Shown here piece by piece: positions 26,699 through 47,089 of a stretch of DNA of 49,153 nucleotides (within the stretch, counting starts at the first letter, position 1; each line of letters starts with the position of its first letter). The stretch is from positions 1 through 49,153 of the IMG/VR virus record IMGVR_UViG_3300025030_000158; one strand, given 5' to 3'. This DNA comes from a virus. Both the position numbers and the translations under genes were made by a program. The notes under the pieces are model-generated. The model made no database searches, had not been told where the DNA came from, and worked only from the letters and a program-made list of their open reading frames with translations.

Positions 26699-27130
26699 AT
26701 GAGCAGCTACGCAGATCCTAAATATGGTGTCTCCCATCAGCACATGCTGACCGGAAACGACGCCACCACCATGCTTTTTACCCCCCAGGCTGGAACGGGC
26801 GCGGAAACCAAGACCCACACCACGACTTGTGATCCGTGGGCTCCCGGGCGCGCCATTACGCTGAAGAAGATTCAGTACCAGGTCAAGACCGCTGCCACCG
26901 GCACCGGGAATTCTCTCGCCCTGGACATCTACAGCGGGACCACTTCGGTAGGCAGCCTTGCCGTTTCTACAACGGCAGCGCTTGGTATTGTCCAGTCTTC
27001 TGCCGATCTTGATGTGGCCGTGGCAGCTACCAGCTACATTCGGGTCCTCGCCAAATCCACCACGACAGCCAGCGCTGCGAACGCGGCCACCGGGCAAATC
27101 GGTATCACCTATCAGGAGACGTTCAGTTAA
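26699..27130 (+). CDS. Head decoration or structural protein candidate, 143 aa
   Basis: A Thr/Ala/Ser/Gly-rich beta protein with a repetitive pattern (DIYSGTTSVGSLAVSTTAAL, then AATSYIRVLAKSTT). It directly follows the coat gene and has its own AAGGAG, as do decoration proteins (head spikes and Ig-like or beta-sandwich cement proteins) in many phages. The stop overlaps the next ATG (TAATG). The beta-rich composition and position support a virion role; a specific family is not recognised. Confidence 0.65.
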   Translation: MSSYADPKYGVSHQHMLTGNDATTMLFTPQAGTGAETKTHTTTCDPWAPGRAITLKKIQYQVKTAATGTGNSLALDIYSGTTSVGSLAVSTTAALGIVQSSADLDVAVAATSYIRVLAKSTTTASAANAATGQIGITYQETFS

Positions 27131-28644
27131 TGTGGAGCCCTGAAAAGTCGCAAGGGTACGAAGTCAGAAAAGTTCGGGACAGGGTTGCATCCTATCTTCG
27201 AGGGGTGATTCTCGACGTAGGTTGTGGCCCTGAAAAGGTTTGTGTTGAGGCCATCGGCATTGATTATATGTCAAAAGCGGCCAATATTCAATGCGACCTG
27301 ACCCATCCTGAGTCCTTGCGGCTTTTCGGCTCAAACAGCGCTGACGTTGTGTTCTCTTCGCATTTCCTTGAGGACTGCATTGATTACGTGGGTATGCTCC
27401 ACGAGTTCTTTAGGATTTGCAAGCCTGGTGGCCACATCATTCTGTATCTACCCCACAAGGATTTATATCCGAACGTGGGACAAGAAGGGGCCAACCAGAA
27501 TCACAAGCATGACTTTATACCATCGGATATTATCGATGCAATGCCCGGGGTGTTTCTCGTCAAACGGTCTGTTGTTCATGATGAAAACGACGAGTATTCC
27601 TTTGAGTTGATCGTTGAAAAGGTTTCCGATCTTGCGCCGATGAGACTGCCGTATTCCATCAAAGAGTACGGCAGGGCGAATACCGTTGTTGTCGTAAGGT
27701 ACGGCGGGTTCGGTGACATGGTGATAGCGGCCCCAATCTTTAAAAGACTCAAAGAACAGGGGAAATACGTTATCGCCAATGTTTCGGCGGATTCAAAATT
27801 CGTTCTTGATGGAAACCCGTACATTGACGAGTTTTTGATTCAAAGCCGGTACACCATCCCGTCAACTCAACTCAAAGAATACTTTGAGGTTCTCAGCCAG
27901 CAATACGGGCAGGTCATCAATCTATGCGAAAGCATGGAAAGAACCCTGCTTGTAGAGCGCGAAAAAGACCCAGACCTGTTCTATCTTCCCCACGAGGAAC
28001 GCCACAAAAGGTTCAACCGGAACTATTCCGAAGCAACCATGGAGCTCGCCGGGTTAAGCGGTGGAGCCAAGCCAGAGCTTTATTTGACCCAGACCGAGGA
28101 AGTCCTTTGCAATGTGTTCAAGCAGAAACATAGGGGCTTTTTCAACGTCATGTTTCAAGTATCGGGGTCTTCTTGGCACAAACTTTATCCCCATGCGAGC
28201 GATGTAGTTGACGATCTGTTAGACGAGTTCAAGGACATGCAGGTTTTTTTGACGGGCGGGAGCAACGCCTCTTTATTGAACTGGACCCGGCCGAGGCTTC
28301 ACAACCGGATCGGGCAATGGGACATGCGTCAGACGATGGTTTTAACTAAGTTCATGGACTGCGTAATCTCCCCTGAAACCGGAACGCTCAATGCTGCCGG
28401 CGCTTTCGATACCCCCAAGATCGGGCTATTGACCCACTCTTCGAAAGAGAACCTGACCAAGTATTTCACAAACGATTATTCGATTCAATCCGATGCCCCC
28501 TGTAGCCCATGCCATAGGATGATTCACGAACTGCACGAATGTCCCCTGGACGATGTTTTTGGTCTTCCGGTGTGCATGTCAAAGTTTATGGACCCTGAAA
28601 AAATCAAGAACGCGGTAAGAGAAATCTACCGAAAAAGGAGTTAA
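27130..28644 (+). CDS. Fusion of a SAM methyltransferase-like domain and a GT9-family glycosyltransferase
   Basis: A 504-residue protein with two parts. The N-terminal 150 residues carry a class I methyltransferase motif I (VILDVGCGPEK, about 26-36), motif II (IGIDY) and a later FRICKPGGHIILYLP strand. From about residue 185, VVVRYGGFGDMVIAAPIF, then VSGSSWHKLYP, SPETGTLNAAGAF and CSPCHRMIHELHECPLD follow the plan of ADP-heptose:LPS heptosyltransferases (GT9). Bacterial GT9 proteins have a DSGPMHLA-like block where this one has ETGTLNAAG. It lies in the head operon between structural genes, so it may modify a virion part or alter host surface sugar after infection. The two domains are joined in one frame with no break. 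Confidence 0.8.
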   Translation: MWSPEKSQGYEVRKVRDRVASYLRGVILDVGCGPEKVCVEAIGIDYMSKAANIQCDLTHPESLRLFGSNSADVVFSSHFLEDCIDYVGMLHEFFRICKPGGHIILYLPHKDLYPNVGQEGANQNHKHDFIPSDIIDAMPGVFLVKRSVVHDENDEYSFELIVEKVSDLAPMRLPYSIKEYGRANTVVVVRYGGFGDMVIAAPIFKRLKEQGKYVIANVSADSKFVLDGNPYIDEFLIQSRYTIPSTQLKEYFEVLSQQYGQVINLCESMERTLLVEREKDPDLFYLPHEERHKRFNRNYSEATMELAGLSGGAKPELYLTQTEEVLCNVFKQKHRGFFNVMFQVSGSSWHKLYPHASDVVDDLLDEFKDMQVFLTGGSNASLLNWTRPRLHNRIGQWDMRQTMVLTKFMDCVISPETGTLNAAGAFDTPKIGLLTHSSKENLTKYFTNDYSIQSDAPCSPCHRMIHELHECPLDDVFGLPVCMSKFMDPEKIKNAVREIYRKRS

Positions 28645-28999: not shown

Positions 29000-29306
29000 A
29001 TCAAAACCCTTTGGGGAAGTCTGTGGGGCTTCACAGTCCGGTGCAAGGTACGAGCAAGACGGCGTTTTGTTCGATGCGAAAGGCGAAGCCCTGAATGCGG
29101 TTGAGATCGTGATCCCCGAAGGGCTACCTCCCGGCCGGCCCCTGCTGCCGCCAGACGTTCCCGTATCCGAAGAGGAAACGGTGCTTTCGCGCTACCGGGC
29201 AGGGCTTTCGGTAAAGGAAATAGCCAAGGAAACCGGCATCCACCACAAAACCGTCGGGAAGATCATCAAGGATGCGAACGCTCAAACTGACATCGCCGTG
29301 GGATAA
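28983..29306 (+). CDS. Helix-turn-helix protein in the head operon, 107 aa
   Basis: The N-terminal half (FGEVCGASQSGARYEQDGVLF) matches a short phage block that I know from small head-operon proteins, usually with a Y-E-Q-D-G core. The C-terminal half is a clear helix-turn-helix, with the recognition part KEIAKETGIHHKTVGKII. It overlaps the second glycosyltransferase gene by 35 bases. It could regulate late genes or belong to the virion; the DNA-binding part is the only firm statement. Confidence 0.65.
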   Translation: MRTLDKSKPFGEVCGASQSGARYEQDGVLFDAKGEALNAVEIVIPEGLPPGRPLLPPDVPVSEEETVLSRYRAGLSVKEIAKETGIHHKTVGKIIKDANAQTDIAVG

Positions 29307-30294
29307 GTACGACTTTTCACGGTTAAAGGGTCCTGGAAAGTCCGTCTGTGTCGTTCGCTACGGGGCGTTTGGAGATATGATCCAAACGTCTTCGATTCTT
29401 CCGGCCTTAAAAGAGCAAGGGTATCATATCACGGTCAACGTGACCCCTTACGGCGAAAGGGTCATTCGTTCCGACCCGCATGTGGATTGCGTGTTCATCC
29501 AAGAAAACGATCAAGTCCCGAATCAAGGCCTCCCTCAGTATTGGGAAGCGCTATCAAAGCCTTTCGATAAGTTCGTCAACCTTTCAGAATCTATCGAAAG
29601 ATCACTACTTGCGGTCGAAGGTGAAAAATCCTTTAACTGGCATCCAAAATTCAGGGACATGGTTATGGGCGTTGATTACCTGGACGCAACCCACGCGATA
29701 GCCGACTGTGAGAATTACCCTAAAAGACCCAAATTTTATCCGACTGACGGTGAAAAGAAGTGGGCAAAGGAATACCGGCGAAAATTCAAAGGTAAGGTCA
29801 TAATGTGGGCGCTGTCTGGGTCGGCGGTCCACAAGTACTATCAGCGGATGGATGAGGTTATCGCCCGGTTGATGCTCAATACGGATGCCCCTATCGTCAT
29901 GGTGGGGGATAAGTCCTGTATTCTCTTGGAGTCTGCATGGATCAACGAAAAAAGGGTCATTCGAAAATCGGGTAAATGGTCGATCAGGGAAACCCTTGCC
30001 TTCATGCAGCAGTGCGACGTTGTGGTGGGAACAGAAACCGGAGTCATGAACGGGGCATCCTTTGGGCCGATGAAAAAGGTTATCATGCTGTCCCATTCCT
30101 CGCCTAAAAATCTGGGCGGGAGTTGGAGAAATACCGCTGTTATCACTCCGAAGGATTGCCCCTGTTATCCGTGTCATGTTCTTCATTACGGGTGGTCAAC
30201 CTGCCACTACGACAAAGAGACAGGCGGAGCGCTTTGCATGGCTAAAACAGATCCTAATGAAGTCTATCAAGCGGTCGTTGGCGGTTTATCCTAA
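29272..30294 (+). CDS. Second GT9-family glycosyltransferase
   Basis: A 340-residue relative of the C-terminal part of the protein at 27130. Shared blocks are VVRYGAFGDMIQTSSIL (near residue 29), LSGSAVHKYYQRMDEV, GTETGVMNGASFG, LSHSSPKNLGGSW and CPCYPCHVLHYGWSTCHYD. It has no methyltransferase part. It starts within the preceding gene, in another frame. Like GT9 enzymes it should bind a nucleotide-sugar (possibly ADP-heptose) and transfer the sugar to an acceptor, but the acceptor block differs from that of LPS enzymes. Two diverged copies in one head operon suggest a two-step sugar addition. Confidence 0.8.
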   Translation: MRTLKLTSPWDKYDFSRLKGPGKSVCVVRYGAFGDMIQTSSILPALKEQGYHITVNVTPYGERVIRSDPHVDCVFIQENDQVPNQGLPQYWEALSKPFDKFVNLSESIERSLLAVEGEKSFNWHPKFRDMVMGVDYLDATHAIADCENYPKRPKFYPTDGEKKWAKEYRRKFKGKVIMWALSGSAVHKYYQRMDEVIARLMLNTDAPIVMVGDKSCILLESAWINEKRVIRKSGKWSIRETLAFMQQCDVVVGTETGVMNGASFGPMKKVIMLSHSSPKNLGGSWRNTAVITPKDCPCYPCHVLHYGWSTCHYDKETGGALCMAKTDPNEVYQAVVGGLS

Positions 30295-31296: not shown

Positions 31297-33383
31297 CGAG
31301 CAACTATAATAATAACGACTATAAGAATTTAGTAGCATACTATCCCCTTCGTGGAGGGGAAGATCTTGTGTCTCCAACTCTTTCGGTAAAACCGGGAAGA
31401 TTTAGGTTTTCCAGAAACTATGAATGCGACATCTCAGGTAGACCAAGAAGGATAGACGGCTACGAAAGATTCGACGGCCAGCCGAAACCTTCCGACGCTT
31501 CCTATTGGATTCTGAATTTTGACGCCGGCTGGACCGAAATCGAAGTTGACGACACGGTTGAAGGGGATACCTCCGGGGCTACCGGGAAAGTCCTCACTGT
31601 TGCCGTTGAGTCTGGGTCGTGGGCCGTGGGGGATGCTGTCGGGTATCTCATCCTTTACAATGTCACAGGGACTTTCGTAAACGACGAACCGATCCTTGTT
31701 TCAGCTTCAGCAGTTGCGACGACAAGCAGCGCCGCTTCCGAAAACGGTGCAGATAACGACACCGATAACGCGGCCTGGGCGCAAGCCGCTATCGAAGCGG
31801 CACGGTTAGATATTGCCGCCGTTCCGGGCTCCGGCAGTCTACTCGGGGCATGGCAATACAGCGGGGTCAAATACGCCTTCAGGAACAATGCCGGGGGGAC
31901 AGCCGGCGCTATGTATAAGTCCTCTGCGGCTGGATGGGTTCTTTGCACGCTCGGTAGGAGTGTTGATTTTACCAGTGGGGGAACTACTGAAATCGTAGCC
32001 GGAAACACAGTCACGGGGGCAACGTCAGGCGCTACGGCGGTTGTCGGCAGGGTGATATTGACCAGCGGAACATGGGCCGGTGGTGACGCTGCTGGAAGGT
32101 TTATCTTCACAACCCAAACGGGGACACTGCAATCTGAAAATCTGAATGTCGGCGCCGTAACCAATCTTGCTACCATTGGAGGAAACTCAACCGCCAACGC
32201 CCTGCCCTTGGGTGGTCGGTACGAATTTGAGAACTATAATTTCGGTGGCCATTCCAACACCAGAAGAATGTACGCCTGCAATGGAGTTGGAACCGCTTTT
32301 GAATGGGACGGGACTGTTTTTGTTCCTATCATTACCGGGATGACCACCGATACACCCAAGCATTTGAAATGCCATAAGGGGCATTTATTCCTGATATTTT
32401 CAGGCGGCTCGATTCAGCACAGTTCTTTCCTCGATCCCTACGAGTGGAGCGCGATTACGGGGGCGGCAGAGCTTGCAATCGGTGACGAAGGTGTAGGTAT
32501 GGCGGTTATACCGGGAGATGTTCTGGCGATCTTCGGGAGAAACTCCACTAAACTGCTTTACGGAACGACCATTGACGATTGGGATTTGCGGACCCACTCA
32601 AACGAATCCGGGGCCATTGAATGGACTATCCAGAGGATCGGCGGGAATGTAGTCTATCTTGATGATAGGGGGATCACCACCCTTTCAGCCACCGATACCT
32701 ATGGGGATTTTGATTCAAACACAATCTCAACCGATGTCCAGCCGTTCCTTAATTCAATGCGTGGGCTTGAGATCGCGTCGGTAAAGGTTAGAAAAAAGAA
32801 CCAATACAGGCTGTTTTTCACAGACGGCCATGTTCTTATTCTTACCATCAACGGAGATACAATCGTAGGCTACACCAGGGCATATTATGATGACCCGGTG
32901 GCTTGTTGTTGTTCGGTGGAAGACACCAGCGGAAACGAAGAGTTGTTCTTCGGGTCAACCGATGGGTTCGTCTACCAGATGGATAAAGGGACTTCGTTCG
33001 ACGGCGGGGCGATAGAAAGCTATCTGAAGGTCCACGCCAATCATTTAAAAACCCCGACCTATAAAAAGAGGTTCAGGAAGCTGACCGTAGAACTTGACGC
33101 TCCGAACAATATCACGTTGAGCGTTAGTCCTGATTATTCCTACGGTACCGATGAAAGCCCTTCAGGACAAGATTTGTCTATCGCCGCTTCCGGTGGTAGT
33201 TGGGACATCGATGCGTGGGAGTCTTTTGTTTGGGACGGTCCGTCTGTTTCGACAGGAGAAGCAAGGATTGACGGAAGCGGACTAAGTATTGGATTGGACT
33301 TTTATCATACCGGAATTTACGATTCGCCCCATACCATCCAAGGGGTAATTGTTCACTATGATGTAAGGGGGTTGAACAGATGA
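31293..33383 (+). CDS. Packaged-DNA stabilisation / tail hub protein (P22 gp10-like)
   Basis: A 696-residue protein in the place of P22 gp10. The beta-rich sequence with repeated strand patterns (FGRNSTKLLYGTTIDDWDL, GGNVVYLDDRGITTL, KNQYRLFFTDGHVLILT) fits a beta propeller that plugs the neck. Between about residues 80 and 290 it has two copies of a 50-residue motif: VEGDTSGATGKVLTVAVESG with GDAVGYLI, and VTGATSGATAVVGRVILTSG with GDAAGRFIF. This extra duplicated insert is not part of the usual gp10 fold as I know it. It may decorate the tail or bind sugar. The next gene starts in an ATGA overlap. Confidence 0.75.
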   Translation: MTSNYNNNDYKNLVAYYPLRGGEDLVSPTLSVKPGRFRFSRNYECDISGRPRRIDGYERFDGQPKPSDASYWILNFDAGWTEIEVDDTVEGDTSGATGKVLTVAVESGSWAVGDAVGYLILYNVTGTFVNDEPILVSASAVATTSSAASENGADNDTDNAAWAQAAIEAARLDIAAVPGSGSLLGAWQYSGVKYAFRNNAGGTAGAMYKSSAAGWVLCTLGRSVDFTSGGTTEIVAGNTVTGATSGATAVVGRVILTSGTWAGGDAAGRFIFTTQTGTLQSENLNVGAVTNLATIGGNSTANALPLGGRYEFENYNFGGHSNTRRMYACNGVGTAFEWDGTVFVPIITGMTTDTPKHLKCHKGHLFLIFSGGSIQHSSFLDPYEWSAITGAAELAIGDEGVGMAVIPGDVLAIFGRNSTKLLYGTTIDDWDLRTHSNESGAIEWTIQRIGGNVVYLDDRGITTLSATDTYGDFDSNTISTDVQPFLNSMRGLEIASVKVRKKNQYRLFFTDGHVLILTINGDTIVGYTRAYYDDPVACCCSVEDTSGNEELFFGSTDGFVYQMDKGTSFDGGAIESYLKVHANHLKTPTYKKRFRKLTVELDAPNNITLSVSPDYSYGTDESPSGQDLSIAASGGSWDIDAWESFVWDGPSVSTGEARIDGSGLSIGLDFYHTGIYDSPHTIQGVIVHYDVRGLNR

Positions 33384-34666
33384 TGAAAAGATATGTCGCC
33401 ATAATTGCAGCCGTCTTAATTGTTCTTTCAGGGTATGCCATCGGAAGTGATTATTTCGATTATAGCGACGGCAGATTGACAGCCGGAACGACCGCAAGGT
33501 CCGGCCAGTTGAATACTATTTTCGACGAGATAGACACCGGGCTTGCAAAGCTTCCGTCAGAGACACGATTAAAGCGCGGCACGGTAAACTATGCCGAAGA
33601 CACCGGAGCCGCAGACGCTTATGTCGTGTCTCTGACATACGCCCCCACTTCGTACACAGACGGCATGGAAGTGATCTTCAAGGCTTCAGCCGTAAACACC
33701 GGGGCTTCTACGATCAATGTAAACGCCCTTGGGATCAAGGCCATCCGAAGAGGCGACGGCGGGGTATTGTCTGCCGGTGACATCCCAGAGAGCAAAATCG
33801 TCGTTCTGCGGTTCAATTCTACATCTGATTATTTTGAGATTCAAGGAGGCCTGATCGGTTCTGGCACCGGTACCATGGCCTCTCAGAACGCAAGCGCGGT
33901 TGCTATCACGGGAGGATCTATTGCAGGGATTACGGACCTTGCGGTGGACGATGGCGGGACCGGGGCGTCTACGGCTTCAGGCGCACTTTCTAATCTTGGT
34001 CTTACAGCAAACGCTTCCGAAGTCAACGCGACGTGTGACGGCAACACGGCCACGGCAGCAGAAATTACGCAAGTTTGCGACGGCAACACGGCCACGGCAG
34101 CAGAGTTATCAGAGCTCCATTCTCAGGGTGCCGTTGCCGCCGACTTTGCCAAACTGCATGCAGTTGCGGGAACTGCCATAGCCGATACGACCTCGACTCA
34201 AACGCTATCGTCAAAAACGCTTACAAGCCCGGTTTTAAATACAGGAGTTTCCGGCACGGCCGTACTTGACGAAGACGCCATGACCTCAAACTCAGCCACG
34301 CGGCTTGCCACTCAGCAGAGTATTAAGGCGTATGTCGATTCGCAAAGAGAGAATACATCTTTTTTGGCGGGTGGCGACCTAACCGGAACCGTCTATATAG
34401 CGCGATCTGGGAAGATAGTTTCCATGACATGGGGGCATCTAACGCACAGCAGTTCTAACAATCCGTCAAGCGCAGCAGGCGTCATACCTGCTGCGTATAG
34501 GCCGGTTGCATCATGCGATAGCGTTTACACAGCGTACAGCTTTGGGACAGCTTTGATCGTTGTCTTCACCAGCGGGGCATTTGAGTTTGAGTACATTGAT
34601 TGGGACGGGTCTTTATTCACGGCAACCGGAACTGGCCCTGGGACAGTTTCTTGGGTTATCCCCTAA
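33380..34666 (+). CDS. Fibre-like virion protein with an N-terminal Sec-type signal
   Basis: A 428-residue protein. Residues 1-22 look like a signal peptide (MMKRYVAIIAAVLIVLSGYA). The rest is Ser/Thr/Ala/Gly-rich and fibre-like, with LQTLSS-type and LSELH repeats, two exact copies of TCDGNTATAAEI-type units (42-base repeat at 34037-34104), and TSFLAGGDLTGTVYI ahead of a C-terminal beta domain. A phage fibre has no known need for a Sec signal, so this could be an anchor or a truly exported protein. The gene overlaps the opposite-strand gene by its last four bases. Confidence 0.7.
   Translation: MMKRYVAIIAAVLIVLSGYAIGSDYFDYSDGRLTAGTTARSGQLNTIFDEIDTGLAKLPSETRLKRGTVNYAEDTGAADAYVVSLTYAPTSYTDGMEVIFKASAVNTGASTINVNALGIKAIRRGDGGVLSAGDIPESKIVVLRFNSTSDYFEIQGGLIGSGTGTMASQNASAVAITGGSIAGITDLAVDDGGTGASTASGALSNLGLTANASEVNATCDGNTATAAEITQVCDGNTATAAELSELHSQGAVAADFAKLHAVAGTAIADTTSTQTLSSKTLTSPVLNTGVSGTAVLDEDAMTSNSATRLATQQSIKAYVDSQRENTSFLAGGDLTGTVYIARSGKIVSMTWGHLTHSSSNNPSSAAGVIPAAYRPVASCDSVYTAYSFGTALIVVFTSGAFEFEYIDWDGSLFTATGTGPGTVSWVIP
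34037..34104 (+). repeat. Tandem repeat in the fibre gene (two copies, 42-base period)
   Basis: A 26-base unit (34037-34062) recurs exactly at 34079-34104, encoding CDGNTATAAE twice with a 14-residue period. Fibre proteins often change length by gain or loss of such units. Confidence 0.8.
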
Positions 34667-35160
34667 AACCCAAACCTAAGTCCGATGGAATAATTATGAG
34701 CAGCCGTAACACCCTCAGCCCCTATCCAAACATACTGCCAAGCCGATCTATATTTCGGAGAGAGCATGGCGCTGATCGCGGTATGAAGGATAAGGGTGGA
34801 CGCAAAGTAAAGATGGACATCGGACTCTTCGGGATACTCACCGATAACGATACCGGCAAGACCGGATTCGTAGTATTCCCCGTTGCTTTTGGAAATATCG
34901 ACAGTTTGCGCCCAGTCCGCGATATGCAACGCGGTATAAGTGACCTGGCGGGCGGTATCGGCCTTAGTCCATCCTTCGAACGGAACGGACGCACAGCCGA
35001 CCATGAGAACGATGCACAACGCACCGGCAGCTTTCAGAAACTCGTGGATGGCATCGCGGATCAACTGAGCTACCGACGATCCTCTTTTTTCGGAAAGGCT
35101 CTGAAGTGCCAAAAGAAAAGATTTCGGGATAAACATGCTGAATCTAATGGCGTTTTTCAT
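34663..35160 (-). CDS. Ribbon-helix-helix domain fused to a lipoprotein-like phage protein, 165 aa
   Basis: Leftward gene inside a rightward operon; AAAGGA eight bases before the ATG at 35160. Residues 1-43 fit a ribbon-helix-helix DNA-binding domain: strand IRFSMFIPKSF, helix LLALQSLSEKRG, second helix SVAQLIRDAIHEFLK. The chain runs on into a hydrophobic segment with a lipobox-like LMVGC (Cys56). A conserved phage lipoprotein follows: TKADTARQVTYTALHIADWAQT, then GEYPEESDVHLYF, YRSAWQYVWIGAEGVTAAHN. I know that latter part from many phages as a stand-alone lipoprotein. No in-frame start with a good binding site lies between the parts, although an unusual start at FLKAAG cannot be excluded. 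Confidence 0.75.
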   Translation of the reverse strand: MKNAIRFSMFIPKSFLLALQSLSEKRGSSVAQLIRDAIHEFLKAAGALCIVLMVGCASVPFEGWTKADTARQVTYTALHIADWAQTVDISKSNGEYYESGLAGIVIGEYPEESDVHLYFASTLILHTAISAMLSPKYRSAWQYVWIGAEGVTAAHNYSIGLRFGF

Positions 35161-35193
35161 GGCTATAATCCTTTCGTTGGGTTGAGTTGTGAT

Positions 35194-35223
35194 ATGATAG
35201 GCATACATCAGGCATACTGTCAA
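35194..35223 (-). promoter_or_regulatory. Strong leftward promoter with tandem direct repeats (putative operator)
   Basis: Read leftward: TTGACA (35223-35218, perfect), 18-base spacer, TATCAT (35199-35194, five of six). The spacer holds two direct repeats, GGCATAC on the plus strand at 35200-35206 and 35211-35217, eleven bases apart, one helical turn. Ribbon-helix-helix repressors bind tandem sites of this kind, so the protein it drives may repress it. Confidence 0.7.
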
Positions 35224-38581: not shown

Positions 38582-41500
38582 ATGATGCCTTGGGAAAAGT
38601 ATTCTGCTACCCCCGATGGGCCGTGGGCAAAATACGGATCACCGGAACCGCCGAGCGCCGAGGAAGGGTCCAAGCCGGATAATCCAGACTTTAGTCTTGG
38701 GCGCCTTGGAAAGCAGATGTACCGTAACGCAGCACAAGGCGTTGCTGATGTCGCAAGAGCCACCGGAGCAGCCCGCAGAACCGATGCAGCCGGAATAGAA
38801 ACCAAGGGCCGTTACGAAGAAAGCGTCCCAACCCAGGGCCTTTTTGAAACCCGCGAGCAAGTAGGAGATGCATTTGAACGTGGCGAACTTTCAAGGGGAG
38901 ACGCCGAACAAATCCTCAAAACAGGCTTTAAATTCCAACCATCCCAACAGACCACAGCCCATGCCGAAGAGACCAGGGAAAAAGCCAAGCCGTGGGAAGC
39001 GTTAGCGGCGTCCATGCCTGAACCGCTTGGGGGATCTCCAGATGGGCTACTTGGCATTGTAGAGCAAGCCGCAGGCGGCATGGCTCGCTTTGCTCCGTCA
39101 ATGGCCGTTAGCGCCTTGAATCTCCCCGCTGGCACAGCTCTGACATTCAGCCAGCTTCACGGTTCAAAATTTGATGAACTGAAAAAGAAAGGCGTTGACG
39201 ACCAGCGGGCAAACGAAGCCGCCATGATCAGTGCCGCCATAATGACGCCGATTGAGCAGGCCGGAACAGTAGTTGAGTTGGGCGCGCTAAAAAACCTGTT
39301 CAAGTCAAGCGCTAAGGGGTTCGGCGCTAAGGCAAGGCAGTTCGTAGGCGCTCTGTTAAAGAGCAGCGCGGCAGAAGGCATTGAGGAATACCTTCAGCAG
39401 TACCCTGACGAGATTTCAACTCTGTGGGCGACAAATCCAGATAAGCCCCCGGCAGAACTTGCGAACCTTGTTATTCAAGAATTGCCGAGGATTAAAGAAG
39501 AGGCCAAGCAATCCGCAGTCGTTGGCGCGGTAGGCGGGGCTATGATGGCTGGTGCTGGTCAAGTGGCGTCTACCCCATTCAAGGGCAAGGCTGAAGAGAT
39601 AGAATCTCAGCCCACCTTTGACGGTAAAGTACAAGTAGCCCAGGACCAAGCCGCCCAGGATACAGCGCCCACGCCATTACAGAAAATAAAAGACAACGCG
39701 GCCAACCGGTTGACGCCCCCCGACATCAAGGTATTGCCACCTGGCCAAAAACTCATGGACCCGATGTCACCCAACAGCGAGACGGTTAAATTCCCGCGAC
39801 AGACCAAAGCCGACCGGGATGCGATTGCATCAGAATTTCAAGCATCGAACAAGGCCGCGGCCGAACGCGCAAAGCAGCAGCAAAATCAAGTCGGAATGCA
39901 AACGATCCTTCAACGGGTCGCTGAAAACCGGAGAAAGAACCAAGAGAAACTTGACGCTGTTGACCGCGTAGGTCTTACCCAACAGGAACGCCAAAAGTCT
40001 ATTGAGGCCGCCGACCGTGCCGAGCAAATGGCCGCAGAGGTCGAAAAGGTCAAGCAATCGTTCACCGGCAAAAAGCCCCCGCAACTGCAAAATATTGCTG
40101 ATGCCGTGGTTGAGGAAGCGCCCGCTGCGCCCGCCAGAGTCGAACCTGAGATTGACCAGGCCCCCGTTGGGCAGCCTCCCGTTGACCGGCAAAAGCAACA
40201 ACAGGAAGTTGAGTTGCTTGCCGACATCTTGGCAAGTTCTGAAGACAAGGCAGCACGTCAAGCCATAGCCGCAGAAATGAAACGCAGGTTCAAGCCCGCT
40301 TTCGTTCCCGGTTCATCCGATCCTTCCGGCTACCAATACAAACCAAGTACACAAGAGGCCCTGCGCTCGAGTGGTGAGCAGCAAGTTGAGCCCACCACCG
40401 GACAGGGTGTAATCGAGTCTCACCCCCCTGCCGACCCCTCCCGGCAGGTACAGCCTTCCCCGGCGCAGCCTGCCTCCTCCCAGGTTGACGCCGGGGAAGG
40501 CACCCCTAAAGCCGATCTGCCAAGTGTAGAAGCGGTAACGAACTCGTCAGAGATGGCGAGTTCAGCCCCCATCAACCAAAACGGCAAATCAGGCCGCCGA
40601 GCAATAGTTTCTTCCCCTGGTGGCGAACCGTCCGTAATAGCAGACAACCGCAAGCCAGCGATAGGTGAAAAGATAGAGGAACGGCGCAACGGCGATGACG
40701 AATACCTTAACAGCCTTCAGCCAAGCCAACGAGCTTCGGTAATGAGAATCCCAACAGAAACCCGACAAGCCATGCAGTCCGAATCAGCCAAGCACAACGC
40801 AAAGTTGATCGGCTACGAAAATGGAAAGTATTGGCTGCACGATAACGAGACTGGATCAAGCGGGAATCTGGTTGATTCAGTTGACCAGATAGCTGGAAAG
40901 ATTGCTGAGAATCGTGAGGCTTTTAGGTCGGTTCAAGGGCAGCAAGTTAAGGCAACGCCCCCAACCTTAACCGAGCCGAGCGGTAAGGAAAGCCCCGTTC
41001 AGCAACCGGCACCCGTTCAGGAAAGGCGAACAGCGCCGGAAGGTGAACAGAATACGAGCGCAACGAACCAGAAGGGCAAGGATGACAAGCCCATCTTTTC
41101 GCGGAGAAACCAGCAGACAGAAAGCCTCAAGGAGTTCTCGGGCCGCATAAAAGAAGATTTGGGGTTAAGTCAATTCGATGTCTACGAAAGGAATAATGGA
41201 GACATCGAGCTAAGTCTCCTGGTGGTTCCGAAAGGTGAAAGAAAAAAAGGTAAGGGATCGGACGCCGTTCGTGCTCTGGCCGAATACGCCGATATTGCAG
41301 GCAAAAGGATATTCGTTAACCCGGCACAGAAAGACGACGCGCACGGCACTACGTCCCACGCTCGCTTACTCAGGTTTTATAGTAGGTTCGGCTTTGTCAG
41401 AAACACCGGGCGAAATAAAGATTTTACGTTACCTCCGGGCATGTATCGTAACCCGAGAGTGCCGCTATTCCAGAAGCGCACCCCCCAAGAGCACGGCACC

Positions 41501-44500
41501 CAAAAAGCCAAAGACATAACCCGCAAAATAAACCGCGTGACATCCGCATGGCAGAACGCACCAACGGTCGAAGTAGTCCAATCCCAATCCGACCTGCCCG
41601 GCGACATCCTCAACCACTTAAAAGCCATCGGCGCGGAAACCGACGTAGTTGACGGCACCTTCTACCAAGGAACTGTTTACCTCGTAGCGGATAACCTCGC
41701 TTCCGAAAAGGCCGCAATTCAAACGCTACTCCACGAATCCTTCGGACATTACGGGCTTCGGGAACTTTTAGGCCCTCGCTTCGGCCAGATTTTACGGCAA
41801 GTCTACAACTCTAAAAAGTCAGAGATTGACGCGATAGGCAAAGAGTATGGCTTTGACACGCGCAGGGCTAACGGCCAAGCCCTTGCCGCCGATGAGTGGC
41901 TTTCCCGGCATGTTTCGGAGAACGAGCAATCTACTTGGATCGACAAGATCATCTCTGCCATCCGGTCATTTGTTCGAAGGATTGCTCCGAATCTCAAATT
42001 TTCAGATGCCGAAATAAGGAACCTTCTTGACGCTGCCCGGTCCCGCGTAGTGGGAACCTCCCCCTCCTTGGCCGGCGCGGGATCGGGGGCGTTATCCCCT
42101 ATTGACCTTTCCGCCGAAAATGCCTTAAATCAGCCTGTGACCTCCAAGCGCGGGGCGGGCATAACCACCGAGAATCAACCCGAGAAGCCCGAAGGTGGGA
42201 AAATCAAAAGGCTGTCAATCGTAGACGAAGCCACGCTGGACAACTTCATAGACCACATAGAGAAAGACAAAACCGGGGGTTCTATTGGGATTCGCGGAAT
42301 ATATCGCCATGAGGTCGGCAAGAAAAAACTAAAGCGATCCCTTGATTCTGTTGAAATGCCTGATGGAACAACAAGGAAAGGGTGGTTGTCGGGAACGTCT
42401 GTTATTGAGATCGCTGGAGATTGGGATAGCATACCAAAAGATTTGTTGATTGAAAATCTCCGCAAGGCTTGGGATAGGGTCCAAAAATATGGCGACAGTG
42501 GGTTTGCTATAGTTAGCGGAGACTTGCGTAAAAACGAAATTAGTAACGATATAGGCGAAGCCGTATTCGGAAATGCAAGAGTTATCGCATATATTGACTC
42601 GGTGGATGTCAGCAAACTTTCCGACCCTAACCCCACAAGCCAACCGGGCAAGGCATACAATCCGAGGGGGAACAAATCAGCTATAGAAATGCGGGAAAGC
42701 GACCCGAACGGGAGCCTCGCAAACTACGACGACCAAAGCAAAAAGGAATGGCTTGCGGCACCACCCCCGGCAAATGGAAAACTAAAACTATACAGGGCGA
42801 CACCAGAGGGCGCACCAATTAAGCCTGGTGATTATGTTACAAATTCTAAACAGTACGCGCTTGACCATATAAAAAACAACCTGGGCGGAAAAGGCAAAAT
42901 AGCCGAAATAGATGCCACCCTCGATGATATCTATCCCGCTGATGGCCCAAAGGAATTTTGGTATGCCCCTGCATCTCTCATAGACTCAAGCCAACCGGGC
43001 AAGGTTGGCACTGAACTATCCTCGACGACGGCCACCGGCTCCATCACCCCCCGCCAAGTCCAGAAAGCCTTCGAGCAAAAAGGCTTTAAAACCGAACGGA
43101 TAGGGAACCTGATCCGCGTCAAAACCCCCTCTGGCAACCTTTACGTTGACGTTACCGATATGGTCGTAGAAAACGACGCCGAAGCCATCAAGATCGGTTA
43201 CGGTCGTTCCGCGGACCCCGGCGAGAAGGTGGCGGGCTCCTATCAGAACTTCGACGGCACCGGAACCATCCGGCTTAAACGAAACCTTGCCGACGAATAC
43301 ACCCTATCCCATGAAACCTTTCACCATCTCAAGGCCGCTGGAATCTTCAACCCCCTTGAGCTTGCCACGCTCAAGAAAGCAGCAGGTCCGGGCGAAGAAG
43401 CGCAGGCCCGATGGATCGAAGGGAAGCTCCGTGAGCGCGGGAGTGAAAAAGGGATCATCGCCCGGTTGATTCAGAAGGTGGCCGATTGGCTGGATGCCTT
43501 TGCTAATCTGGTGGCGGTGACCGAGCGTGGGATTGTTCGTGGGATGGAGAGCGGCGAGTTTTTGGGCCGGGAATCTTATCTGGGTGAGGATTTGACGGAA
43601 GAAGGCGGGTTGGCCGAAGCGGGCCGCAAGCTTGACACGGATGCCGAAAATGCCTTAAATCAGCCTGTGACCTCCAAGCGCGGGGCGGGCGACATAGCCA
43701 CCAAAGAAACTCCGCAAGGCCCGAAGGGTGGGAAATACGAAGACATCAGATCCCAACTCAATGGCATGTCTAAGGACGACTTCGACAAGACCGAACAGCG
43801 GGTAGGTAGCAACTTAAAAGAGGCTTTAAGCCGGGTTGTCTACGCTGAAGAGGACTACCGACTTCCGAATCTTGGCAACATGATCCCGCCCGATAGGATG
43901 ACCCCGCAACTCAAAAGCAAGTCCAAGAGGGTCAAGATTTACAGGGCGGTTGAGGGGCAATTCAATTCCGTTCGTCCCGGAGATTGGGTGACCCTTACAA
44001 GGTCGTATGCCAAGGGTCACACTCAGGGCAGAAGCGGCGCAAAGATTCTTGAACTTGAAGTCCCGCGAGAGGATGTGGTTTGGGCCGGAACTGATGAAAA
44101 CGAGTTCTTCTATGCCCCCAAGGAACTTGCGAGACCGAACGCTAAAAGCACGTTTGATGGTATCACAGAGGCGCTTGAATCTATCCCTAACCCCACAAGC
44201 CAACCGGGCAAGGTTGGCACTGAACCAACCCGCTATTCCACCCTAACCCCCAAAGAACAAGGCGGCCACAAAGCCAATCTATCTGCCAAATACGATGAAG
44301 CCAGAGCCGCCATAGAGCGCCCATTAAACGATTTTATGTATTGGATAGTGGACAAAAACCACACCATCCAGGCGGTTCAGGAAAAACTCGATCTAGTCAC
44401 AGAAGACATAGACCTTTTTCTGAAGGAAACCCAACGGCCTAAAGTAACCGCGTCCAGGGTCAAAGGCTTTTGGGACGAGCAAGCCAAGCCCTTCATGGTT

Positions 44501-47089
44501 GCCATTGCCAAATCAGGCAAGACCCTCAAGGCCTTTGAGGAATACGCCCACGCCAAACACGCCCCTGAAGCCAACATTGACGCAAGAGACAAGAACGCCA
44601 AGCGCTACCTTGACCAACTGATAGAAGCCCTGCCCGCCAAACTCACGCGAAGCCTACGCGCTGAAATGGCAGAGTTGACCGAAAAGAAACGCAAGTCCGC
44701 AAAGATCAAAGGCGTGTTCGGAGGTATCGGATTGACCCCCGAAGACAACTACAACTTCCTTCAGAAAGCATTTACCGACTTCGCAGCCGAAAAGGAAACA
44801 CAGTCCTATCTCAAAAAGTGGGAATCCTTCACCGGCATGGACGAAACCAAGGATGATGTTGGGAAACTTTCCGGCATGTCAAACGCTGAAGCCATGGCGA
44901 TCACGGCTAAAGCCGACCCTGAAATGGAATCCTTACGGAAGATGCTTTCCCAGATCAACGCAAACCGGATAGACCTTTTGTACGACGCTGGGTTGATCCC
45001 ACAAGAAGAATACGAAGCCATTCAAGACAAGTTCAAGTTTTACGTTCCACTTCACCGTGAAGGATACGAGGATTCTTTATTCGGATCGTCCAGGGGCTTA
45101 AATCCCACCGGTAAGCCAATCAAGACGCGCGGAGGGTCCAAGCGGGCCGTGGTGGATATTGTTGGAAACTCAATCGCCTCATATGAAAAGGCAATCAACC
45201 TTGCCGAAAAAGCGCGGTCAACCAGAACCTTGAGGGATTTGGTCAAGGCCAATCCAGATCCGGAACTGTGGACCCTGAAAAAGGAAAAGAAATCCCCGCG
45301 CCTGGATCAATACGGAAACGTCAGAATGTACCCCGACCTTTTCAATATCGCGGACAACGAGTTTAGGTTCATGGCCGATCAGGAGCAATACATCCTTGAA
45401 GCGAACCGCGACAATAAAGACATGATGCTCATGATCCGAAATCTAAAGGCGGCCGACGCTCAACACGGACCTATTTTGAGTGCGCTGTCAAAGGCTAACC
45501 AGTGGCTTGCGCGGATCAATACGTCGTGGTCGCCTGAGTTTGTCATTTCCAACTTTGCCCGCGATATTCAAACCGCAGGGATCAACATTCAGGACACCGG
45601 GGTAAAAGGAAAAAGCATGCTCTCTGGCGCCGGGAAAGCCATTAAAGCGATTTGGAGAGTTGAGAAAGGCAAATCTAAGGGCGATCCACTGGAAGCGCTC
45701 TATGGACGGTTTAAGGACGCAGGCGGTAAAATCAGTTGGTCCGATGTTCACGGAAGCGTTGAAAAATTGGGCAAGAAAATATCCAGAGAGATCGAGATGC
45801 TTCAAGGAAAAAGACCATCCTTGAAAGCGTTCCGATCTTTTGTCGATACGGTTGAAGCTGCAAACACATCGATTGAAAACGGTATCAGGCTGCACGTATT
45901 TAAGCTCGCTACCGAACAGGGTTTATCTGATTCCAAGGCGGCGCAAATCGCTTCGGATATCACGGTAGATTTCACCAAGAAAGGCGCGGCTGGCCCCATT
46001 ATTAACTCTCTTTATCTGTTTGCCAACGCCGGCATTCAGGGCTCTTACCGGATCATTCGGGCGGCATCGAAAAGTTCAGCGGTTCGCAAGTCTCTCGCTG
46101 GCGTTGTAGGGGCCGGGTTCACTATTGGTATGGCAAATATTCTTATGGGTGGGGTCGATGACGACGGCGAAGATTATTACAGCAAGATCGAGGACCACAT
46201 CAAAGAGCGCAACGCTATCTTCATGATTCCAGGGACCAAGGGAAAATACGCCAAGATTCCTCTTCCATGGGGTTATAACCTTTTCTGGAATATCGGTAAC
46301 GAAGCGGCGGCAGCCATTGCATCAAAGAACTATAAGCCGCTTCAAGGAGCAGCAAGATTGGCCTCGACTTTCGCCAATGCATTTAACCCGCTTCAATCTG
46401 GTACTCTATTGCAAACCCTGGCTCCCACGATTGCCGATCCTTTCGCCATGGTAGCCGAAAACAAGAACTGGTTCGGCGGGCCTTTGATGCCGGAAAAGAA
46501 CGTCTTTGATAAGACCCCTGACCCTGATTCCGAGCGTTACTGGAAGTCGGCAAGAAAGCCTTCGGTGTGGGTCGCCTCAATGCTAAATAGGATGACTGGA
46601 GGTGATAAAGTCAAAAAGGGCGCTATCGATGTTTCGCCTGAAACGCTTGACTTGGTAATCGATACCGCTGGCGGGTCAATGCTCAGATTCTTTACGGACA
46701 TCGGGGCGGTCGCGTCAAGGTCGGTAGGCGGCGAGGAAGTCGAACTTCAAAGAGTTCCTTTCGTCCGAAGGGTCTTTGGCGAAAAGTCAGAATGGGCCGA
46801 TAGGACTCAGTACTTTAGAAACCTTGAGGATGTTTTGACAGTCAAGGAACAGCTCGCCGCTTATGAAGGGACCAAATACCACAGATATATTTCAATGAGC
46901 ACCAGGCCAGAGCAGGCGGTTATCGGAAACGCCAAACGCACTGAATACGCCCTGAAAAGATTGAAGAAAGATCGAAAAGCGGCAGAGGCCCAGGGCGATA
47001 AGGCCAGGGTAAAAGAAATCGACGCCAAGATTAAACGCCATTACATCGAATTTAATAAGAGATACAACGCCGAAAAAAGCAGATATTGA
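38582..47089 (+). CDS. Giant polyvalent virion protein (GNAT, two zincins, two ADP-ribosyltransferase-like modules, LPD38-like end)
   Basis: A 2835-residue phage polyvalent protein, probably packed in the head and sent into the cell with the DNA. From left to right: a structural N-terminus (WEKYSATPDGPW, hydrophobic AVVGAVGGAMMAGAGQ near 310); a Gln/Pro-rich linker; a GNAT-like domain (about 845-955); zincin 1 with HESFGH (1051-1056); an unknown alpha/beta domain (about 1200-1350); ART-like module 1 (Arg1405, PGDYVTNS, KEFWYAP); zincin 2 with HETFHH (1577-1582); ART-like module 2 (Arg1788, PGDWVTLT, ENEFFYAP); then helical regions and an LPD38-like end from about 2315 (WSPEFVISNFARDIQ) with a transmembrane-like stretch near 2503-2525. 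Linker sequences repeat exactly at DNA level. Enzyme activity is inferred. Confidence 0.8.
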   Translation: MMPWEKYSATPDGPWAKYGSPEPPSAEEGSKPDNPDFSLGRLGKQMYRNAAQGVADVARATGAARRTDAAGIETKGRYEESVPTQGLFETREQVGDAFERGELSRGDAEQILKTGFKFQPSQQTTAHAEETREKAKPWEALAASMPEPLGGSPDGLLGIVEQAAGGMARFAPSMAVSALNLPAGTALTFSQLHGSKFDELKKKGVDDQRANEAAMISAAIMTPIEQAGTVVELGALKNLFKSSAKGFGAKARQFVGALLKSSAAEGIEEYLQQYPDEISTLWATNPDKPPAELANLVIQELPRIKEEAKQSAVVGAVGGAMMAGAGQVASTPFKGKAEEIESQPTFDGKVQVAQDQAAQDTAPTPLQKIKDNAANRLTPPDIKVLPPGQKLMDPMSPNSETVKFPRQTKADRDAIASEFQASNKAAAERAKQQQNQVGMQTILQRVAENRRKNQEKLDAVDRVGLTQQERQKSIEAADRAEQMAAEVEKVKQSFTGKKPPQLQNIADAVVEEAPAAPARVEPEIDQAPVGQPPVDRQKQQQEVELLADILASSEDKAARQAIAAEMKRRFKPAFVPGSSDPSGYQYKPSTQEALRSSGEQQVEPTTGQGVIESHPPADPSRQVQPSPAQPASSQVDAGEGTPKADLPSVEAVTNSSEMASSAPINQNGKSGRRAIVSSPGGEPSVIADNRKPAIGEKIEERRNGDDEYLNSLQPSQRASVMRIPTETRQAMQSESAKHNAKLIGYENGKYWLHDNETGSSGNLVDSVDQIAGKIAENREAFRSVQGQQVKATPPTLTEPSGKESPVQQPAPVQERRTAPEGEQNTSATNQKGKDDKPIFSRRNQQTESLKEFSGRIKEDLGLSQFDVYERNNGDIELSLLVVPKGERKKGKGSDAVRALAEYADIAGKRIFVNPAQKDDAHGTTSHARLLRFYSRFGFVRNTGRNKDFTLPPGMYRNPRVPLFQKRTPQEHGTQKAKDITRKINRVTSAWQNAPTVEVVQSQSDLPGDILNHLKAIGAETDVVDGTFYQGTVYLVADNLASEKAAIQTLLHESFGHYGLRELLGPRFGQILRQVYNSKKSEIDAIGKEYGFDTRRANGQALAADEWLSRHVSENEQSTWIDKIISAIRSFVRRIAPNLKFSDAEIRNLLDAARSRVVGTSPSLAGAGSGALSPIDLSAENALNQPVTSKRGAGITTENQPEKPEGGKIKRLSIVDEATLDNFIDHIEKDKTGGSIGIRGIYRHEVGKKKLKRSLDSVEMPDGTTRKGWLSGTSVIEIAGDWDSIPKDLLIENLRKAWDRVQKYGDSGFAIVSGDLRKNEISNDIGEAVFGNARVIAYIDSVDVSKLSDPNPTSQPGKAYNPRGNKSAIEMRESDPNGSLANYDDQSKKEWLAAPPPANGKLKLYRATPEGAPIKPGDYVTNSKQYALDHIKNNLGGKGKIAEIDATLDDIYPADGPKEFWYAPASLIDSSQPGKVGTELSSTTATGSITPRQVQKAFEQKGFKTERIGNLIRVKTPSGNLYVDVTDMVVENDAEAIKIGYGRSADPGEKVAGSYQNFDGTGTIRLKRNLADEYTLSHETFHHLKAAGIFNPLELATLKKAAGPGEEAQARWIEGKLRERGSEKGIIARLIQKVADWLDAFANLVAVTERGIVRGMESGEFLGRESYLGEDLTEEGGLAEAGRKLDTDAENALNQPVTSKRGAGDIATKETPQGPKGGKYEDIRSQLNGMSKDDFDKTEQRVGSNLKEALSRVVYAEEDYRLPNLGNMIPPDRMTPQLKSKSKRVKIYRAVEGQFNSVRPGDWVTLTRSYAKGHTQGRSGAKILELEVPREDVVWAGTDENEFFYAPKELARPNAKSTFDGITEALESIPNPTSQPGKVGTEPTRYSTLTPKEQGGHKANLSAKYDEARAAIERPLNDFMYWIVDKNHTIQAVQEKLDLVTEDIDLFLKETQRPKVTASRVKGFWDEQAKPFMVAIAKSGKTLKAFEEYAHAKHAPEANIDARDKNAKRYLDQLIEALPAKLTRSLRAEMAELTEKKRKSAKIKGVFGGIGLTPEDNYNFLQKAFTDFAAEKETQSYLKKWESFTGMDETKDDVGKLSGMSNAEAMAITAKADPEMESLRKMLSQINANRIDLLYDAGLIPQEEYEAIQDKFKFYVPLHREGYEDSLFGSSRGLNPTGKPIKTRGGSKRAVVDIVGNSIASYEKAINLAEKARSTRTLRDLVKANPDPELWTLKKEKKSPRLDQYGNVRMYPDLFNIADNEFRFMADQEQYILEANRDNKDMMLMIRNLKAADAQHGPILSALSKANQWLARINTSWSPEFVISNFARDIQTAGINIQDTGVKGKSMLSGAGKAIKAIWRVEKGKSKGDPLEALYGRFKDAGGKISWSDVHGSVEKLGKKISREIEMLQGKRPSLKAFRSFVDTVEAANTSIENGIRLHVFKLATEQGLSDSKAAQIASDITVDFTKKGAAGPIINSLYLFANAGIQGSYRIIRAASKSSAVRKSLAGVVGAGFTIGMANILMGGVDDDGEDYYSKIEDHIKERNAIFMIPGTKGKYAKIPLPWGYNLFWNIGNEAAAAIASKNYKPLQGAARLASTFANAFNPLQSGTLLQTLAPTIADPFAMVAENKNWFGGPLMPEKNVFDKTPDPDSERYWKSARKPSVWVASMLNRMTGGDKVKKGAIDVSPETLDLVIDTAGGSMLRFFTDIGAVASRSVGGEEVELQRVPFVRRVFGEKSEWADRTQYFRNLEDVLTVKEQLAAYEGTKYHRYISMSTRPEQAVIGNAKRTEYALKRLKKDRKAAEAQGDKARVKEIDAKIKRHYIEFNKRYNAEKSRY
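42113..42160 (+). repeat. Exact 48-base direct repeat, copy 1, in the giant gene
   Basis: This stretch, encoding AENALNQPVTSKRGAG, recurs exactly at 43643-43690, 1530 bases (510 codons) downstream. Both copies follow the C-terminal helix of a zincin unit and stand before an ADP-ribosyltransferase-bearing part. Confidence 0.95.
42625..42653 (+). repeat. Linker repeat NPTSQPGK, copy 1
   Basis: A 29-base unit encoding PNPTSQPGK, found again at 44185-44213. A shorter, related form lies at 42987-43016. Confidence 0.85.
42987..43016 (+). repeat. Linker repeat SQPGKVGTE, copy A
   Basis: Thirty bases, encoding SQPGKVGTE with flanking bases, identical to 44196-44225. Both copies directly follow an ADP-ribosyltransferase-like module, so the linker marks a module border. 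Confidence 0.9.
43643..43690 (+). repeat. Exact 48-base direct repeat, copy 2, in the giant gene
   Basis: Identical to 42113-42160. The near-zero divergence, also at silent positions, argues for recent duplication or gene conversion. Confidence 0.95.
44185..44225 (+). repeat. Linker repeat NPTSQPGKVGTE, copy 2
   Basis: Holds the 29-base unit shared with 42625-42653 and the 30-base unit shared with 42987-43016. It closes the second ADP-ribosyltransferase-like module. Confidence 0.9.

Follow-up and report, generated by a model that had tools for sequence, protein, structure and literature searches.

The window, by which we mean the whole stretch of viral DNA that was analysed (49,153 nucleotides, IMG/VR record IMGVR_UViG_3300025030_000158), carries a lipoprotein gene on the minus strand that starts at ATG 35160 and ends at the stop codon 34663-34665. 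It converges with a tail-fibre gene on the plus strand (33380..34666), which matches tail PHROGs and has a stop codon that overlaps that of the lipoprotein gene by 4 bp. The first-pass annotation had described an opposite-strand reading frame with an LMVGC lipobox at this position, and both are present, but the start needed correction: 34663-35223 is a mechanical ORF only, and its TTG "start" at 35223 falls in the -35 hexamer TTGACA. The residue numbers given in that annotation for the two parts of the protein, 1-43 and 56-165, agree with a start at ATG 35160.

Reading along the minus strand, the order is TTGACA (35223-35218), GTATGCC-TGAT-GTATGCC (35217-35200), TATCAT (35199-35194), the Shine-Dalgarno sequence AAAGGA (35174-35169; -5.4 kcal/mol against the anti-SD) that serves ATG 35160, and the ATG itself. 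The same -35 hexamer is found upstream of the gene in the IMG/VR relatives L003, L004, L008, L027 and L028, and the -10 hexamer comes from a sigma-70 consensus scan in which TTGACA-18-TATCAT was the sole site with at least 11 of the 12 consensus bases on either strand of the 49-kb window (shuffled window: mean 0.2 such sites, maximum 2). The promoter that had been proposed for the gene is thus borne out, and so are the two direct repeats 11 bp apart that had been noted within it. The 18-bp spacer between -35 and -10 consists entirely of this tandem repeat, a putative operator with an 11-bp period that is conserved in comparison with L027.

Taken alone the tandem repeat is weak evidence. Eight-base direct repeats at spacings of 8-14 bp number 16 in the window against a shuffle mean of 5.4, or about 2% per 60 bp, and a nine-base direct repeat with the same 11-bp spacing is present within the fibre gene. 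The repeat gains significance because it is conserved before the same module in other phages, as described below. GGCATAC is itself over-represented in the window (13 sites against 4.2 expected, with a maximum of 8 in 100 shuffles), and a regulon was considered as the reason and not supported, as no second perfect copy of the GTATGCC tandem pair is found elsewhere in the window.

The polypeptide is laid out in three parts, all on the minus strand: a ribbon-helix-helix (RHH) domain (residues 1-43, 35032..35160), a lipoprotein signal ending at Cys56 (residues 44-56, 34993..35031), and a helical phage protein (residues 57-165, 34666..34992) that we call passenger A. An RHH fold had been suggested for the first 43 residues, and profile search of the N-terminal part supports an RHH domain there, with residues 1-46 giving 24.1 bits (E 3.4e-5) and the whole protein 20.6 bits against PF01402 (RHH_1, cut-off 20.5); the homologous domains in L027 and L028 give 31.4 and 22.6 bits. 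The best phage families for this part are Arc-like PHROGs, the Arc-like repressors. In the AlphaFold2 monomer model there are helices at 13-23 and 30-55, and the N-terminal strand has pLDDT about 30; the second RHH helix runs unbroken into the signal as the single helix 30-55, at low confidence.

The lipobox L-M-V-G-C follows the hydrophobic stretch AAGALCIVLMVG in the window, and LVIGC and LVVGC follow a hydrophobic stretch in L027 and L028 respectively, with h-region hydropathy of 2.3-2.6 in the three proteins. The cysteine is at residue 56 in the window, 53 in L027 and L028 and 15 in relatives that have no RHH domain. In the three RHH-bearing proteins it is thus beyond the distance of about 15-35 residues from the start that is expected of a signal peptidase II substrate, and if they are lipoproteins then they are ones with an atypically long n-region. 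The greater length (Cys at 56 as against 15) could impair processing.

Passenger A is modelled by AlphaFold2 as a small helical bundle (pLDDT 88.3). A fold search with it gave no PDB match, the one similar structure being an unnamed viral protein (E 2.5e-4, TM 0.85), and no characterised homologue was found in sequence and fold searches. A resemblance to DUF5658 was weak and was given no weight. Spanin (Rz1), Cor and endolysin were rejected as identities, the matches being weak and those to Rz1 and Cor covering the signal peptide only; for Cor the match is to phrog_1119, at E 0.015-0.14 and confined to the signal. Beyond the signal there was no match to Llp or Cor in PHROGs, and there was none in PDB.

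Relatives and the exchange of passengers

Relatives of passenger A are present in the IMG/VR stretches L002-L009, L017 and L020-L025, and the family is one of exported proteins at the ends of tail-fibre genes. The close relatives, in L003-L007, begin MK... at the position of Leu42-Lys43 in the window protein, have their cysteine at 15 and have their own TTGACA promoter. The DNA alignment of L003 with the window begins at the second base of codon 42, and crossover between the two types could have been anywhere in the signal. The RHH_1 profile had no match in nine records lacking the domain. An antisense gene with a 4-bp stop overlap against the tail-fibre gene is also found in L003, L004, L008 and L009. 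More distant relatives lie at or near tail-fibre gene ends (L009 1-198, L021 2836-3204, L024 2857-3198) and some of them carry a plain, non-lipoprotein signal; the wider family of fibre-linked exported proteins has the motif D..QT...E.NPILGKYP.

The RHH-plus-signal protein found no relative when used as a scan query, and it was the DNA repeat that succeeded instead. A scan of IMG/VR with the repeat GTATGCCNNNNGTATGCCTA alone gave seven stretches, of which three (L027, L028 and L032) have RHH-lipoprotein fusions. Their promoters read TTGACAC-GTATGCCTGATGTATGCCTATC(A/G)TATGCC, that is, three copies of the repeat with an 11-bp period, then a Shine-Dalgarno sequence; in L027 and L028 the third copy lies another 11 bp along, and the window has two good copies. 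Their genes have a front of the form MKRIS...FLKAAGAL...GC joined to a mature protein unrelated to passenger A, which we call passenger B. Over this gene L028 and L032 do not differ, which leaves three distinct fusion alleles (window, L027 and L028/L032). Downstream of the remaining matches of the repeat scan there was no RHH gene, and a second, relaxed promoter pattern added chance matches only, none ahead of an RHH gene. When the fusion or parts of it were compared by BLAST with the INPHARED phages and the PLSDB plasmids, just distant RHH matches came up, and two scans of 84,980 bacterial and archaeal genomes, one for the passenger and one for the RHH-signal module, gave no relative.

Passenger B (L027 5174-5794, L028 4565-5161) is an enzyme-like lipoprotein that resembles the transglutaminase-like cysteine peptidases (BTLCP). 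The resemblance is weak, with 18 bits for PF06035, below the cut-off of 27; the L027 protein has a GDCED motif.

The L027, L028 and L032 fusions sit in the same antisense slot, between a fibre gene and a tail gene; this tail gene also lies beside the gene of L004, which lacks the RHH domain. As independent alleles they back two proposals of the first-pass annotation, that RHH domain and lipoprotein are fused in a single reading frame and that this is a moron-like antisense gene, and the 11-bp repeats are found again in them. Three combinations exist, since passenger A occurs without the RHH domain (L003-L007) and with it (window), and the RHH domain also occurs with passenger B (L027, L028/L032). 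The same front end stands on a different lipoprotein elsewhere, which gives it the look of a module for self-limited expression and export that can be reused. The gene is real, conserved and modular.

The limits of the module can be seen in the DNA. At the lipoprotein gene, homology between window and L027 is restricted to 35224-35016 on the minus strand, from the -35 to the signal (68.6% identity over 210 nt, E 7e-13), and takes in promoter, operator, ribosome-binding site, RHH domain and signal peptide. A fibre segment common to both (34124..34176, plus strand, 83% over 53 nt) is possibly a second recombination handle. On one side, L027 and L028 share 4.7 kb of upstream DNA with 87.6% identity that reaches as far as the signal peptide, and past it they diverge in passenger and in fibre tip. 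The front module is thus a constant handle next to a block that varies, made up of passenger and fibre tip. Because the two have this flanking DNA in common, their operators amount to hardly more than one observation beside that of the window. Passenger type is not strictly tied to tip type, as the tip in L004 (passenger A) resembles that in L027 (passenger B). Among the other window ORFs of at least 100 aa, matches in the L027 and L028 stretches were limited to the fibre and to a 211-aa protein, which has 29% identity to an L028 protein.

Two other regions of the window may be mentioned. Between capsid and tail genes there are paralogous genes at 27130-28644 and 29272-30294 (33% identity over 322 aa), the first of which has a methyltransferase domain and also matches GT9 heptosyltransferase, and the pair might modify host surface glycans. 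A 2835-aa polyvalent protein with an LPD38 domain and an internally repeated segment (ENALNQPVTSKRGAG) is encoded at 38582-47089.

Conservation of the front module and alternative readings

Between window and L027, synonymous sites of the RHH domain plus signal differ by 72% (pS 0.72) and nonsynonymous sites by 20%. For the three pairs of alleles dS is 1.4-2.3 and dN 0.23-0.31, with dN/dS about 0.1-0.2 in all three, and by this comparison of sequences the RHH domain and signal are under purifying selection. The promoter block, in which 32 of 33 aligned bases are identical between window and L027, is far better conserved together with its repeats than the coding DNA, where synonymous sites are near saturation. 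The junction FLKAAGAL is the same in the proteins of window, L027 and L028 although the codons differ synonymously, which indicates that the joint of RHH domain and signal is translated and selected as one chain. We think it very probable that a single polypeptide is made from the gene. No record other than the window pairs the RHH domain with passenger A, as would be expected if the window gene were a functionless in-frame fusion that arose by chance, or an assembly chimera. However the same junction is present with a different passenger in independent contigs, amino acids are conserved across it with synonymous change, and the flanking arrangement with its 4-bp stop overlap is intact. A chance fusion or chimera is thus already disfavoured, and we regard it as most improbable.

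A single reading frame could also give two products, with translation from ATG 35160 yielding an RHH form and translation from the internal codon 42 yielding a short lipoprotein. In the alignment that codon stands where the genes of L003-L007 truly start; it is followed by Lys, as in those genes, and initiation there would give a standard signal with Cys at 15; in L027 and L028 the internal codon is TTG, so that it is a legitimate start in two of the three alleles. In the window, however, it is CTG, a poor start, and in no allele does it have a Shine-Dalgarno sequence (-1.8, +0.7 and -1.5 kcal/mol, against a median anti-SD background of -2.4 kcal/mol in the phage), while the annotated starts all have one, at -5.4 to -11.0 kcal/mol. 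A second, short product is therefore possible but not favoured, and the two-product reading seems to us quite unlikely.

It might also be that the RHH domain does not regulate, but is a mere dimerising cytoplasmic anchor or a remnant, with the repeats conserved as promoter sequence. In its favour, Phe10 occupies the third residue of the strand, a position that usually contacts DNA, and the spacer and -10 of the L003 promoter, which has no RHH domain behind it, match those of the window at 13 of 24 bases (p 0.004 in shuffles, one register), so that part of the repeat may exist without the domain. But the RHH antitoxin VapB26 (TVYLP) likewise has an aromatic residue at the position of Phe10, and, with up to one mismatch allowed, no copy of the tandem repeat is present in L003, L004 or L008, all without the RHH domain; the repeat is also absent from L004-L007. 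Purifying selection on the RHH domain, the exact 11-bp period, the three copies in L027 and L028 and conservation far above that of the coding DNA also count against a non-regulating domain, which we rate as improbable as the two-product reading. The L003 promoter (about 40 bp upstream of 5001) retains TGCC and TATGC at operator positions, and is perhaps a decayed operator following loss of the RHH domain.

Predicted regulation and export

The reading that we favour, and hold to be rather likely on the sequence comparisons, is that promoter, operator, RHH domain and signal make up a mobile module which represses its own gene and, from an antisense slot by the fibre tip, exports lipoproteins that can be swapped. 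RHH proteins are dimeric when they bind DNA, adjacent dimers on sites that are in phase can act cooperatively, and autorepression is common among RHH genes (RelB: PMC2812701; antitoxin review: PMC4803016). The gene has its own promoter, with repeated in-phase sites between -35 and -10 that are conserved in L027 and L028. RHH dimers on two or three repeats would occupy the DNA between the two hexamers and keep polymerase out. As operator and RHH domain are conserved together, autoregulation is a well-supported prediction, and autorepression by the RHH domain is a part of the proposal that we predict with some assurance.

In this proposal a single polypeptide would have a type II (lipoprotein) signal peptide whose n-region is an Arc/CopG-type RHH domain. 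Cleavage at Cys56 and lipidation would follow, and the lipoprotein would go to the envelope, with the +2 Ala favouring the outer membrane. Lipoprotein signals are normally cleaved by LspA at the cysteine, and the RHH domain would thus end up not on the lipoprotein but on what is left of the signal peptide. This remnant may stay in the inner membrane, or intramembrane cleavage by a site-2 protease may free the RHH domain; RseP, a site-2 protease, removes signal remnants after the first cut (PMC8144685). We predict, with less assurance than for autorepression, that the RHH domain is at the membrane at some stage, and it is possible that the gene senses its own dose by means of a membrane-tethered repressor, as the first-pass annotation had suggested. 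Each exported lipoprotein molecule would leave one repressor molecule behind, and we propose that synthesis would stop in this way at a set dose.

An extension of this proposal is feedback coupled to export, in which the RHH domain would be held in the pre-lipoprotein and cuts by LspA and a site-2 protease would release active repressor. The promoter would then be shut only once the lipoprotein had truly been exported, and the front module would be a mobile regulated-secretion cassette put ahead of changing surface effectors. We consider this extension unlikely.

The gene has its own strong host-type promoter inside the late region and lies beside the receptor-binding fibre tip. An antisense location next to the fibre tip suggests that the lipoprotein most likely acts on the receptor or entry route of the phage itself. 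Superinfection exclusion or another receptor-related function is the likeliest role for the passenger, and we put it forward tentatively and, for superinfection exclusion, by analogy, as there is no sequence or fold match to Llp or Rtp45.

What we appear to have is a transcriptional repressor built into an export signal, reused with different cargoes and with a matching conserved operator. If the repressor acts, phages would have here a circuit of one gene for setting how much surface lipoprotein is made, and if the repressor is released only upon processing of the signal, the export of the lipoprotein would be read out directly. The antisense slot by tail-fibre tips is a place to seek superinfection-exclusion or receptor-targeting genes.

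Comparison with known systems

With regard to the RHH autorepressors (Arc, CopG, MetJ and the VapB/RelB antitoxins), the gene resembles them in having an RHH domain and its own promoter with in-phase repeated sites, and differs in that the RHH domain leads straight into a lipoprotein signal peptide. RelB dimers occupy adjacent sites on one face of the DNA (PMC2812701), but the sites for RelB are palindromic 12-bp half-sites, whereas here there are direct 11-bp repeats.

The fusion also resembles membrane-tethered regulators in its order of cytoplasmic N-terminal regulatory domain, membrane segment and exported C-terminal part. ToxR and CadC are one-component regulators of this kind, with one membrane segment. 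The sigma regulator FecR likewise has a cytoplasmic N-terminal regulatory domain, one membrane segment and an exported C-terminal part (PMC8144685). In contrast to all three, the fusion has an RHH domain, a cleavable lipobox signal as membrane segment and an exchangeable passenger.

There is a further likeness to peptides from lipoprotein signals that site-2 proteases release, in that a signal remnant may act after export. Peptide pheromones derive from lipoprotein signals; here, however, the remnant would carry a DNA-binding domain and not be a short peptide.

In the case of the superinfection-exclusion lipoproteins (T5 Llp, T1/phi80 Cor and Rtp45) the likeness is that of a small phage lipoprotein. 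The gene for T5 Llp, which blocks FhuA, adjoins that for the receptor-binding protein (PMC9586334), and Rtp45 is a superinfection-exclusion protein (PMC12685063). The present gene differs from these in its antisense orientation, its RHH front module and the lack of a sequence match beyond the signal region.

In the titles and abstracts of the open literature we found no described case of a membrane-anchored or signal-fused RHH protein, nor, in the same titles and abstracts, a description of RHH autorepressor, membrane-tethered regulator and phage lipoprotein moron joined through a signal peptide. Each of these three is a known kind, and the fusion would combine them.
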